Source of the DNA: Mycolicibacter virginiensis
GTDB lineage: Bacteria > Actinomycetota > Actinomycetes > Mycobacteriales > Mycobacteriaceae
Direction: 5' to 3'
NCBI RefSeq assembly: GCF_022374935.2
Contig: NZ_CP092430.2
Span: 3,720,001-3,784,000 of the forward strand
Length of the DNA: 64,000 nucleotides
How positions within the stretch are numbered: the stretch's first letter is position 1; every line of letters begins with the position of its first letter. Below the pieces are notes generated by a model. That model was given only the letters and a program-made list of their open reading frames with translations, did not search any database and had not been told where the DNA came from. Shown piece after piece: positions 28,752 to 31,729 of this stretch. A program made the position numbers and the translations under genes.

Positions 28752-29216
28752 GTGTTCAAAGTGATGTTCTATTCGCCCCGCATCCCGCCCAACACCGGCA
28801 ATGCGATTCGAATGGTGGCGGCAACCGGCGCGGAGCTTCACCTGGTGGAACCCATGGGCTTCGACCTGTCCGAGCCCAAGCTGCGGCGGGCCGGCTTGGA
28901 CTATCACGACCTGGCCTGGGTGCGCGTGCACTCGTCGCTGCCGGCGGCCTGGGAGGCGCTGGGCGAGGCCCGGGTGTTCGCGTTCACCGCCAGCGCCCAC
29001 ACCCCCTTCACCGACGTGAGCTATGAGCCCGGCGACGTGCTGATGTTCGGCCCCGAGCCCACCGGCCTGGACGAGGCGACGCTGGCCGACCCGCACATCA
29101 CCGCGAGAGTGCGTATCCCGATGCTGGCCGGGCGGCGCTCACTGAACCTGTCCAATGCCGCCGCCGTCGCGGTCTACGAGGCGTGGCGCCAGCACGGGTT
29201 CGCCGACGGGGTGTAG
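28752..29216 (+). CDS. trmL: tRNA (cytidine(34)-2'-O)-methyltransferase, SPOUT family
   Basis: Methylates the 2'-O of the wobble nucleotide of some tRNA-Leu; 154 aa. SPOUT/SpoU motifs: YSPRIPPNTGNAIRMVAATG near residue 5, FGPEPTGLDEATL near 98, and IPMLAGRRSLNLSNAAAVAV (knot) near 122. GTG 28752 aligns with homologues (VFKVMFYSPRIPPN). Same place as Rv3366, between the conservon and the nitroreductase region. Confidence 0.92.
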   Translation: MFKVMFYSPRIPPNTGNAIRMVAATGAELHLVEPMGFDLSEPKLRRAGLDYHDLAWVRVHSSLPAAWEALGEARVFAFTASAHTPFTDVSYEPGDVLMFGPEPTGLDEATLADPHITARVRIPMLAGRRSLNLSNAAAVAVYEAWRQHGFADGV

Positions 29217-29290
29217 CCCCTTCAGCCCCCGCCAGGGAGCGGAACCTTTCCTCCAGCGGCCCAGGCCAACCGGTCCGCGAGCCGAAGCAC

Positions 29291-29320
29291 TTGTCACCAC
29301 TCGGCGGGACCATGTACGGT
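29291..29320 (+). promoter_or_regulatory. Putative promoter of the DUF1326 copper module
   Basis: TTGTCA at 29291-29296 and TACGGT at 29315-29320 are spaced 18 bases, giving a start near 29327, inside the operator palindrome. Such placement would allow a bound repressor to block transcription. Confidence 0.45.
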
Positions 29321-29324
29321 CCTG

Positions 29325-29353
29325 CATATACCCCTACCCCCTAGGGGTATATG
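29325..29353 (+). promoter_or_regulatory. CsoR/RicR-type copper operator
   Basis: Perfect 11-base arms CATATACCCCT and AGGGGTATATG are separated by 7 bases. Inside lies TACCCCCTAGGGGTA at 29335-29349, which fits the TACCC-N5-GGGTA pattern bound by CsoR-family copper sensors such as mycobacterial RicR. There are two direct TACCCC half-sites (29329 and 29335) facing one GGGGTA, so two registers are possible. It lies just before GAGGAGG, the ribosome site of the next gene. Confidence 0.75.
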
Positions 29354-29367
29354 ACGAGGAGGATCTC

Positions 29368-30084
29368 ATGAGGACACCGACGGCCGTGGATTGGCACTTG
29401 CGAGGCGAGTGGTTTGACGTGTGCAGCTGCAAGCTGCCCTGCCCGTGCAGCTTCGCCCAGGAGCCCACCCACGGAGACTGTCTGTTCACCCTGGTTTGGC
29501 AGATTCACGAGGGGCACTACGGCGACATCGAACTCGCCGACCTGGGCGTGATCGCCCTCGGTGAGTTCGAGGGCAACATGTGGATCGACGATCCCAGCGC
29601 CACGATGAAATTGATGTTCTACATCGACGCCAAGGCAGACACCGACCAGCGCTATGCCCTCGAGCGCATCTTTACCGGGAAAGAAGGCGGTTGGCCGGGC
29701 GAATTCGGCAGCCTGATCGGCACATTGGACAGGATCGAGTACGCACCGATCACCTTCGAGGCCGCCGACGATCTGGCGTACTGGCGCGCGGAGATACCGG
29801 GCAAGGTCGACCTACGCGTCGAGGCACTCACAGGCCCGACGTCGGATCCGGGCCGGCGGGTCACCACCGCCAACGCCCCGGGCGCAGAGGTCGGCCCGGG
29901 CCAGGTCGCGACGTGGGGCGTGGTCAAACGCGACCAGGCACGGGGATTCGACTTCTCTCACGAATACCGCGGCGGCTCAAGCAAACACTTCCCGTTCGAC
30001 TGGCAACCGCACACGGATGACCCCGGCGCCCAGCAAACCAATTCCGGCGCTGAGAGCCATTCAGGCTGCCAGTGCAACGCCTAA
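29368..30084 (+). CDS. Cys-rich DUF1326 protein, first gene of copper-operator module
   Basis: 238 aa from ATG 29368 after GAGGAGG at 29356-29362. The N-terminus WHLRGEWFDVCSCKLPCPCS carries Cys19, Cys21, Cys25 and Cys27, with Cys38 (GDCLF) nearby and Cys234/Cys236 in the C-terminal GCQCNA; this pattern suggests metal binding. The remaining DUF1326 body (GNMWIDDPSATMKLMFYIDA, GFDFSHEYRGGSSKHF) has no known catalytic motif. No signal peptide, so cytosolic. The upstream CsoR-type palindrome and the Met/His-rich neighbour point to copper; function is inferred. Confidence 0.83.
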   Translation: MRTPTAVDWHLRGEWFDVCSCKLPCPCSFAQEPTHGDCLFTLVWQIHEGHYGDIELADLGVIALGEFEGNMWIDDPSATMKLMFYIDAKADTDQRYALERIFTGKEGGWPGEFGSLIGTLDRIEYAPITFEAADDLAYWRAEIPGKVDLRVEALTGPTSDPGRRVTTANAPGAEVGPGQVATWGVVKRDQARGFDFSHEYRGGSSKHFPFDWQPHTDDPGAQQTNSGAESHSGCQCNA

Positions 30085-30143
30085 GCCCACTGTCAGATCG
30101 ACTGTAGAAGAAGCGATCCCACCACCACCGAAAGGAACACACG

Positions 30144-30494
30144 ATGGCAACCTTCCGCAAACTCCGTACCAAGTTCGGCGAGCACAAGCGCCGAGTCGCC
30201 GGCACCCTGGCCTTCGCCGGCCTCGCAGTGGCAGTCTTCGTCGCCGGAGCCTGGGCGGGATCCTCCGGGGCACTCACGTTGGGCACGACTCCGGCCGTGG
30301 CGTCCCACGCAATGCATTCGCCCGCGCCCCACGGCCATGATTCCGATGACTCGCCGATGCCCGCCCGCGAAATGGGACCGAACATGAAGAAGCACGGCGA
30401 AATGCCCCCCGGCGAAATGGGACCGGACAAGAAGCCCATGAAGCCGGGCATGCCCATGCACAAATCGGACAAAAAGTGCTGCGACAAAGCGTGA
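30144..30494 (+). CDS. Membrane-anchored Met/His-rich peptide, probable copper binder
   Basis: 116 aa. Basic N-terminus (FRKLRTKFGEHKRR), one hydrophobic segment at ~19-39 (AGTLAFAGLAVAVFVAGAWAG, i.e. signal or anchor), then a 63-residue outward tail with 9 Met, 6 His and 2 Cys. Repeats such as REMGPNM, GEMPPGEMGPDKKPM and KPGMPMH alternate Met and His in the manner of Cu(I) chelators, ending KCCDKA. ATG 30144 follows AAAGGA. Middle gene of the module, 59 bases after the DUF1326 gene. No recognised family; function inferred from composition and context. Confidence 0.8.
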   Translation: MATFRKLRTKFGEHKRRVAGTLAFAGLAVAVFVAGAWAGSSGALTLGTTPAVASHAMHSPAPHGHDSDDSPMPAREMGPNMKKHGEMPPGEMGPDKKPMKPGMPMHKSDKKCCDKA

Positions 30495-30518
30495 TTCGCG
30501 ACCGGACAGGGAGTCTCC

Positions 30519-31001
30519 ATGCTTGACACCATCGATGGCCTGCCGGCGCATCCGCTGCTCGCACACCTGGTAGCGGTCTTGGTGCCCACGACTGCCCTGC
30601 TGGCCGTGGTTGTCGTGCTCTGGCCCGCCGCACGCCGCCGTGTCAGTGGCGCCGCGTCGTTCGTGGCGGTGGGCACGCTGGTGGCGATCCCGCTGACCAC
30701 AGCGGCCGGCAGTTGGCTCCAACAACGGGTGATGGGAGGTGAGATCCTCCATCGTCACGCCGCATTGGGCGCTCAGCTCGTCCTGTGGTCCGCGCTGCTT
30801 GCCATCGCCATGATCATCTGGTGGGCGCTGCATACCCCGCTGTTTGCCGACGAGGTGGGAGCGCTGCCACCGGCGATCCGTCGCATCGGCATGACCGCTA
30901 CCGGGGCAGGCACCCTGATATTCGCGGCTGTGTCGACCTGGCTGGTCATCCGCATCGGCCACACCGGCGCCCAGTCGCTGTGGGGCGGAATGGACTGCTG
31001 A
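30519..31001 (+). CDS. DUF2231 integral membrane protein
   Basis: 160 aa with four hydrophobic segments: LVAVLVPTTALLAVVVVLWP, AVGTLVAIPLTTAAGSWL, ALGAQLVLWSALLAIAMIIW and MTATGAGTLIFAAVSTWLVI. The family hallmark GLPAHPLLAHL opens the protein, and conserved His residues near membranes (HP, HL, HRHAALG) could bind heme or metal. ATG 30519 is preceded by GGGAG, 24 bases after the Met-rich gene's stop. Third gene of the copper-operator module; may partner the anchored peptide in the membrane. Confidence 0.82.
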   Translation: MLDTIDGLPAHPLLAHLVAVLVPTTALLAVVVVLWPAARRRVSGAASFVAVGTLVAIPLTTAAGSWLQQRVMGGEILHRHAALGAQLVLWSALLAIAMIIWWALHTPLFADEVGALPPAIRRIGMTATGAGTLIFAAVSTWLVIRIGHTGAQSLWGGMDC

Positions 31002-31021
31002 CCATAGCCGCTGAGTTCACC

Positions 31022-31057
31022 TGGCCCGGACCATGGTCCGCTGACCGGTCCGGGCCA
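31022..31057. terminator. Bidirectional hairpin between convergent genes
   Basis: TGGCCCGGACC at 31022-31032 pairs perfectly with GGTCCGGGCCA at 31047-31057. It lies between the convergent stops of the DUF2231 and nitroreductase genes and is the likely shared terminator. Confidence 0.7.
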
Positions 31058-31081
31058 AGTGGATTCACGCCGCGCTTGCGA

Positions 31082-31729
31082 TCACCAAGTGTCGAAGTGC
31101 GCGACCTGCTCGGCCGGCAGCCGCTTGGCCGGCTTGAAGTCGGTGCCCTTGGTGTAGGCGATCGGAAACAGCCCGCCCTGGCTGTACTCGTCATACGGGA
31201 TGCCGAGCACCTCGGCGGCCTGCTGCTCACCGTCGCCCAGCAGGTGCAGTGTCGTCCAGCAGGAACCCAGCCCGCGGTTGCGCAACGCCAGACAGTAACT
31301 CCACGCAGCCGGGAACAGTGACGCCCAAAAGGATGCGCCGAACCCCAGCGACGCCGTCTCGGGCTTGCCTTCCAGGCACGGGATCATCAGCACCGGGACG
31401 TCCTGCAGGTTCTCGGCGAGGTATCGGGCTGAGCCGCTGACGAACTCCATCCGCTCACTGCGCACGTCGCCCTCGCCGTAGTCCGGCCGCATCCGGTTCA
31501 GATATGGCATGGCGTTCGCGCGGTAGATATCGGCGAGCGCCTGCTTCTTGACCGGGTCGGTGACGAACATCCATTGCCAGCCCTGAGCATTGGAACCGGT
31601 GGGTGCCTGCAGGGCGATCTCAAGACACTCCATCAGCACCTCGCGGGGAACCGGCTTGTCGAGATCGAGGCGTTTGCGGACCGATCGCGTGGTGGTCAGG
31701 ACTTCGTCGGCGGACAAGTTGAGGTTCAT
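31082..31729 (-). CDS. Nitroreductase-family protein (Rv3368c-like)
   Basis: 215 aa FMN-dependent NAD(P)H oxidoreductase. RSVRKRLDLDKPVPREVLME, LQAPTGSNAQGWQWMFV, LGSCWTTLHLLGDGEQQAAE and GIPYDEYSQGGLFPIAYT match Rv3368c throughout. Substrate unknown. ATG 31729 has no clear ribosome site; the region upstream is the two-copy repeat at 31741. It follows dnaE2 on the same strand after 134 bases. Confidence 0.9.
   Translation of the reverse strand: MNLNLSADEVLTTTRSVRKRLDLDKPVPREVLMECLEIALQAPTGSNAQGWQWMFVTDPVKKQALADIYRANAMPYLNRMRPDYGEGDVRSERMEFVSGSARYLAENLQDVPVLMIPCLEGKPETASLGFGASFWASLFPAAWSYCLALRNRGLGSCWTTLHLLGDGEQQAAEVLGIPYDEYSQGGLFPIAYTKGTDFKPAKRLPAEQVAHFDTW

Follow-up and report, generated by a model that had tools for sequence, protein, structure and literature searches.

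A predicted RicR-controlled operon encoding a DUF1326 protein in Mycolicibacter virginiensis

A three-gene operon of Mycolicibacter virginiensis, located within a window of 64,000 nucleotides (bases 3720001–3784000 of a one-contig 4.98 Mb genome), is preceded by a perfect palindrome resembling the operators of RicR/CsoR-type copper repressors. Its products are a Cys-rich DUF1326 protein (gene 1), a Met/His-rich peptide with one hydrophobic stretch (gene 2), and a DUF2231-like membrane protein (gene 3). This is probably a RicR-repressed copper-tolerance operon, in which a cytosolic Cys-rich protein is combined with a Met/His/Cys tail anchored in the membrane and a membrane partner of four helices.

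The operator and its predicted regulator

The palindrome, CATATACCCCTA-CCCCC-TAGGGGTATATG, contains a second, overlapping register, TACCCCCTAGGGGTA, as a sequence-only reading of this DNA had claimed; the coordinates and residue counts given there for the palindrome and the three genes also proved right (Table 1). The second register is a TAC-X9-GTA inverted repeat around G-tracts, the form of a type 2 CsoR/RicR operator, and its 15-bp core is identical to those listed for copZA1 and copZA2 in Table 1 of PMC3902906, two operators bound by S. lividans CsoR that drive copZA-like operons. The motif TACCCN5GGGTA occurs once in the window, where shuffles lead to an expectation of 0.01 matches (one match was reached in 1 of 100 shuffles), and at eight sites genome-wide, as compared to two for a reversed control pattern. 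On these window and genome counts, a chance origin of the palindrome was rejected. No match to the pattern ATACCCNNNNGGGTAT was detected in the window with up to two mismatches, the spacing there being N5.

Among the eight genomic N5 sites, one precedes mymT, which is divergent to an O-methyltransferase-like gene, one precedes a DUF305-ricR pair (L072:6655–7549, with ricR directly after the DUF305 gene), one precedes a copper P-type ATPase gene, one lies before the gene of a small membrane protein, with an SfLAP gene on the divergent side, and the window operator is a fifth; two lie inside long open frames, and the eighth has no assigned gene. As expected of a CsoR/RicR regulon, a copper-type repressor gene is present in the same genome. 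Host RicR scores 181 bits against a model cut-off of 175, and among solved chains its closest match is the CsoR 4adz (E 1.1e-29), which we take to be that of S. lividans. Host MymT reaches 101.5 bits against a cut-off of 80. The presence of RicR and MymT, the core identity to CsoR operators, and the tandem operators found before close DUF1326 homologs (below) bear out the proposal, also made from the sequence alone, that control is of the RicR/CsoR copper type. From these sequence features we strongly infer the operator, the repressor family, and the operon. Separately, the site beside the SfLAP gene (L073:3942–3956, TACCCATACGGGGTA) lies between that gene and the gene for a 158-amino acid membrane protein that contains Cys and His and has no Pfam match; it is a candidate further RicR target.

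Two CsoR-family genes are present in the genome, and the second, CstR-like one (L082) encodes two retained Cys and, by eye, not the copper-site His, raising the alternative that the operon responds to persulfide through this regulator and not to copper through RicR. On an M. gallinarum plasmid, moreover, DUF1326 is followed by a CsoR-family gene with DUF302, TauE, and MBL genes. However, the CstR-like gene's own site has N4 spacing (ATACCCTATAGGGTAT), and the same plasmid carries N4 sites before its CsoR-family gene and N5 sites before DUF1326, N5 being the spacing common to the mymT, ricR, and copper ATPase sites. Because the CstR-like gene's site is N4 and the sites of copper genes are N5, the N5 spacing points to copper; persulfide control is disfavored on this basis and appears very improbable. 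A further N4 site, ATACCCTGGGGGGTAT (L091:1501–1516), stands directly before a gene that by likeness is of the carboxymuconolactone-decarboxylase type and is perhaps a target of the CstR-like regulator.

Tandem operators, PpoB2, and the DUF1326 protein

Gene 1 matches PF07040 (DUF1326) at 181.9 bits, above the Pfam gathering cut-off of 25, and 1019 relatives were returned at E ≤ 0.001 in one search. DUF1326 is sparse among relatives of the host, being present in 6 of 60 sampled genomes of the genus (broadly defined in GTDB) and in 24 of 251 genomes of the family. Outside Mycolicibacter, two N5 operators, 56–63 bp apart from centre to centre, flank the DUF1326 promoter in all 14 loci read with at least 70% identity, which derive from 11 Mycobacteriaceae genomes, one M. 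gallinarum plasmid, and two Streptomyces plasmids. TTG occurs one base past the first operator in 14/14 of these loci (CTTG in 11/14), and an A/T-richer, −10-like stretch precedes the second, a layout in which the predicted promoter is clamped between two operators. The CTTG element persists in the window at 29290–29293. At one tandem locus (L053, genome G095), the first operator is contained within a longer perfect inverted repeat with arms of ∼27 bp that extends across the −35 region.

When the 251 family genomes were scanned for the tandem layout blind to genes, eight matches were obtained, six of them at DUF1326, representing every sampled genome with a close DUF1326 except the host; the reversed pattern gave none. 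The remaining two were a simple repeat and a site before a CsoR-family gene that scores 128.8 bits against the RicR model, below the cut-off of 175. Across 394 genomes of the class, an operator was present at 7/7 full-length DUF1326 of at least 72% identity (six tandem, the host single) and at 0/23 other DUF1326 loci examined, 20 of which are clean tests, as the upstream region was not read in register in L117 and L122 and L118 is a fragment. That scan listed 42 matches, 30 of them with loci; the 12 without were all weak or second copies. The L118 fragment (genome G049) comprises 40 residues of a close DUF1326 at 75% identity and may have decayed from a whole gene, which would again point to gain and loss.

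In a tree of 54 rows, the 17 rows of DUF1326 proteins with operators group in a single clade (support 97/92), and the trait requires 1 change; 0 of 500 shuffles gave so low a number. Eight loci without usable protein were left out of this tree (L049, L063, L067–L071, and L118), and several of its deep joins lie between long branches. The three Mycolicibacter rows nest inside the operator clade, and the single operator of the window is therefore a derived state. All four Mycolicibacter-type loci read (the window, L010, L011, and L012) exhibit a doubled left half-site, TACCC[CA]TACCCCC, which constitutes the two registers and may compensate for the lost operator. As compared to the S. lividans CsoR/copZA system, then, the operator core is shared, but DUF1326 is neither a CopZ- nor a CopA-type product, and the close DUF1326 loci read outside Mycolicibacter have two operators flanking one promoter.

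A second association with copper was found outside the operator clade. On Rhodococcus plasmids, DUF1326 adjoins a DUF2182 gene, a family now named PpoB2 "Copper chaperone" in Pfam (PF09948, COG5486). In tblastn searches of the fetched flanks with three PpoB2 proteins (spanning 12 kb in L075, 1.5 kb in L094–L123, and ∼5 kb in the majority of loci), PpoB2 was detected at 40 of 46 non-operator DUF1326 loci, or 38 of 44 without the query sources L078 and L079 (Rhodococcus), which match by construction and are near-copies of each other. Three of the six misses (L012, L049, and L118) hold no full-length DUF1326 and are not real tests; L108 and L071 also lacked PpoB2 in the flanks fetched for them. 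In contrast to this usual neighborhood, PpoB2 was detected at 0/17 distinct operator-clade loci (22 loci minus L096–L100, second fetches of L052, L050, L054, L046, and L051), and the only PF09948 match of the host genome, at 950806, is remote from the window. In the loci read, DUF1326 is accompanied by PpoB2 or by copper operators, rarely by neither (L071, L077, and L108), and never by both. In addition, DUF1326 of the M. gallinarum plasmid is preceded by a CopC gene at a distance of 273 bp. A stretch of 25 kb on this plasmid (pJCM6399, L075; typed as mobilizable) holds DUF305, CopC, DUF1326, and BlaI/M56 together with a CsoR-family sulfur-type cluster, and DUF1326 together with its operators is therefore also plasmid-borne.

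The Cys residues of gene 1 are arranged as C19-S-C21-KLP-C25-P-C27, followed by C38 and a CQCNA tail; at least two Cys are present in the last 14 residues of 45 of the 120 DUF1326 homologs listed. Like host MymT, the protein is Cys-rich and encoded behind the same operator motif, but MymT has 49 amino acids, as compared to a predicted barrel of 238 amino acids with a local Cys cluster. The predicted fold of gene 1 was likened to that of acetoacetate decarboxylase, and DUF1326 could accordingly be a copper-induced enzyme of this kind that repairs or detoxifies a metabolite of copper stress, with the Cys cluster holding a structural metal. However, the Foldseek superpositions are poor (TM 0.34–0.40, root-mean-square deviation 12–13, six matches), and the usual neighbor of DUF1326, PpoB2, is a copper chaperone and no metabolic enzyme. 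In the decarboxylases, the Lys that forms the Schiff base is located mid-chain, but the sole invariant Lys of the DUF1326 alignment, K206, is in the last strand; judged from this alignment, DUF1326 seems to lack the catalytic residue. An enzymatic role of this kind is quite unlikely. No publication naming DUF1326 was found in the open-access library searched, where a DUF305 control did turn up.

The peptide, its DUF2231-like partner, and the integrity of the operon

The last 63 residues of gene 2 contain 9 Met, 6 His, and 2 Cys. A search returned 11 proteins including its own, the four with a source name all being labelled Mycobacterium; the nearest named relatives belong to M. heraklionensis (96%), Mycolicibacter sp. 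MYC340 (71%), and sp. MYC098 (69%). All 11 sequences of the alignment combine a Met-rich tail with one or more CC pairs, 7 of them having two such pairs, and repeats resembling EMGPNMKKHG number 0 to 3 per sequence. The tail is predicted outside the membrane by the positive-inside rule. In contrast, the mycobacterial metal chaperone PacL1 serves CtpC by binding Zn2+ and bears its Gln/Ala repeat region on the cytoplasmic side; gene 2 has no Gln/Ala repeat, its tail is Met/His-rich, and its neighbors are the DUF1326 and DUF2231-like genes, with no adjacent P1B-ATPase gene.

Gene 3 itself matched no Pfam family at E ≤ 0.1, so that the PF09990 (DUF2231) cut-off is not reached; 19 of 41 aligned members among its relatives match PF09990 at E ≤ 0.01. 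It is named DUF2231-like only, because the match comes from relatives and not from gene 3. The model displays four long helices and one short one; the sequence-only reading had described a four-helix DUF2231 protein. A DUF2231-like protein is present in 213 of 297 genomes of the genus, with only six of the matches listed reaching 55% identity or more. A Met-rich one-pass peptide is encoded directly upstream in five of these six (the window's own, L125, L126, L127, and L128); in the sixth (G030), the gene is interrupted and a different Met/Cys-rich peptide is nearby. In L156, a CsoR-type repressor domain is fused to a heavy-metal-associated domain (L156:10244–10957), and the island around this fusion contains, besides an interrupted DUF2231-like gene, genes for a BlaI-like protein, a zinc peptidase, and a Met/Cys-rich one-pass peptide (L156:9667–9975).

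The M. tuberculosis RicR regulon comprises mymT, mmcO, lpqS, Rv1706A, socAB, cysK2, Rv2963, and ricR, as named in PMC10470581. The present operon is alike in its predicted RicR-type repressor and a Cys-rich product that would bind copper, host mymT and ricR having the same N5 motif; by contrast, the part of PMC10470581 that lists the regulon names none of its genes as DUF1326, Met-rich anchored peptide, or DUF2231-like, a comparison of names only. To that extent the three genes are distinct from the known regulon, as the sequence-only reading had it, but a reading of them as one conserved module is not supported. At 11 other DUF1326 loci, no co-directional open frame passing the composition filter starts within 300 bp downstream, although small frames could be hidden, and the gene 2–3 pair also occurs without the operator. 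Read at the DNA level, the trio was seen in three distinct genomes only, those of the window, of M. heraklionensis, and of Mycolicibacter sp. MYC340, as L125 and L126 are the same places as L010 and L011; to these are added relatives known at the protein level. Mycolicibacter sp. MYC098 retains nothing of DUF1326 but its apparent last codons, and the operator stands directly before the gene 2–3 pair. We read these sequences as two modules, operator with DUF1326 and peptide with DUF2231-like protein, that were probably joined in Mycolicibacter, the pair apparently being kept under copper control even when DUF1326 is lost.

Alternatively, DUF1326 is the sole copper gene, and genes 2 and 3 are hitchhikers with another job, e.g., a cell-envelope stress module. 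The absence of a close co-directional follower at the 11 other DUF1326 loci, together with a BlaI-type gene beside the operator-free pair in L127 and L128, is consistent with this possibility. However, MYC098 keeps the operator before the pair despite the deletion of DUF1326, the Met-rich tail with its CC pair is common to all aligned gene 2 sequences, and on the M. gallinarum plasmid no more than 12 kb separates BlaI and M56 genes from DUF305, CopC, and DUF1326. We consider hitchhiking unlikely.

Several further observations weigh against a copper-tolerance operon of three cooperating genes. Conservation of the Cys cluster extends to DUF1326 proteins that lack the operator, and the cluster may be structural; the superfamily matched by the fold of gene 1 consists of enzymes. 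Mycolicibacter has lost one of the two operators, and the cyanobacterial DUF1326 protein L077, which is 65.6% identical and sister to the operator clade, lacks an operator and has no PpoB2 in its vicinity. A middle CC pair seen in 8/11 aligned gene 2 sequences is absent from the window copy. In L127, L128, and L129, the gene 2–3 pair stands beside BlaI-type and membrane-peptidase genes, with no N5 operator in the DNA read around it (BlaI-type by Pfam Penicillinase_R in L128 and by likeness in L127 and L129; membrane-peptidase by a Peptidase_M48 match in L156 and by likeness in the others), and the ligand of genes 2 and 3 need not be copper.

Table 1. Features of the operon and its control region (positions in the window)
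Feature	Position	Strand	Basis
−35-like TTGTCA	29291–29296	+	sequence
−10-like TACGGT	29315–29320	+	18-bp spacer from −35; sequence
Predicted RicR operator, 29-bp perfect palindrome (12-5-12) over predicted transcription start	29325–29353	+	sequence
Operator core TACCCCCTAGGGGTA (TAC-X9-GTA)	29335–29349	+	equals cores of S. lividans CsoR operators copZA1/copZA2 as listed in PMC3902906 Table 1
Ribosome binding site GAGGAGG of gene 1	29356–29362	+	sequence
Gene 1, DUF1326 protein, 238 aa (amino acids), CxCxxxCxC...C cluster and C-terminal CxC tail	29368–30084	+	
Gene 2, 116 aa, basic N terminus, single hydrophobic stretch, Met/His-rich tail with CCDKA end	30144–30494	+	
Gene 3, 160 aa, DUF2231-like four-helix membrane protein; conserved His11, His16, His80, and C-terminal Cys	30519–31001	+	
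Strong hairpin 3′ of gene 3, terminator-like, without T run	31015–31064	+	−36.4 kcal/mol, z −5.44 versus 200 shuffles

The three co-directional genes are separated by gaps of 59 and 24 bp. The operon is flanked by a trmL-like gene upstream (28752–29216) and, on the opposite strand, by a nitroreductase gene downstream (31082–31729).

Proposed mechanism and implications

Most likely, and by strong inference from the sequence, RicR would block the operon at low copper and be released upon binding Cu(I). In the repressed state, RicR would occupy the palindrome, covering the predicted start, and silence all three genes; Cu(I) binding would free RicR, and the operon would be made along with MymT, RicR, and the copper P-type ATPase. 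The cytosolic DUF1326 protein would then bind or hand over Cu(I) via its CxCxxxCxC...C cluster and flexible C-terminal CxC tail, the Met/His/Cys tail of the anchored gene 2 peptide would retain Cu(I) on the outer face of the membrane, and the peptide would have the four-helix DUF2231-like protein as its membrane partner. Association and composition are what suggest copper induction and metal binding, and also which way copper flows and what genes 2 and 3 do.

More tentatively, and with somewhat less confidence than doubt, DUF1326 may represent a new type of cytosolic protein, built as a decarboxylase-like barrel, that buffers or chaperones Cu(I), acting with PpoB2 in one branch and alone under a clamped promoter in another, to which Mycolicibacter added the peptide and the four-helix partner as a transmembrane copper relay. 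What is new is a set of RicR/CsoR regulon members in which clamped tandem operators nearly single out DUF1326, together with a lineage-specific operon; the kind of function, copper-induced tolerance with predicted metal binding, remains a known one. Among the 251 genomes scanned, the copper response signalled by tandem operators is almost exclusive to DUF1326. The two-module history indicates that copper promoters and copper proteins recombine, a plasmid included, and since two independent genomic associations tie DUF1326 to copper, an orphan family becomes testable.
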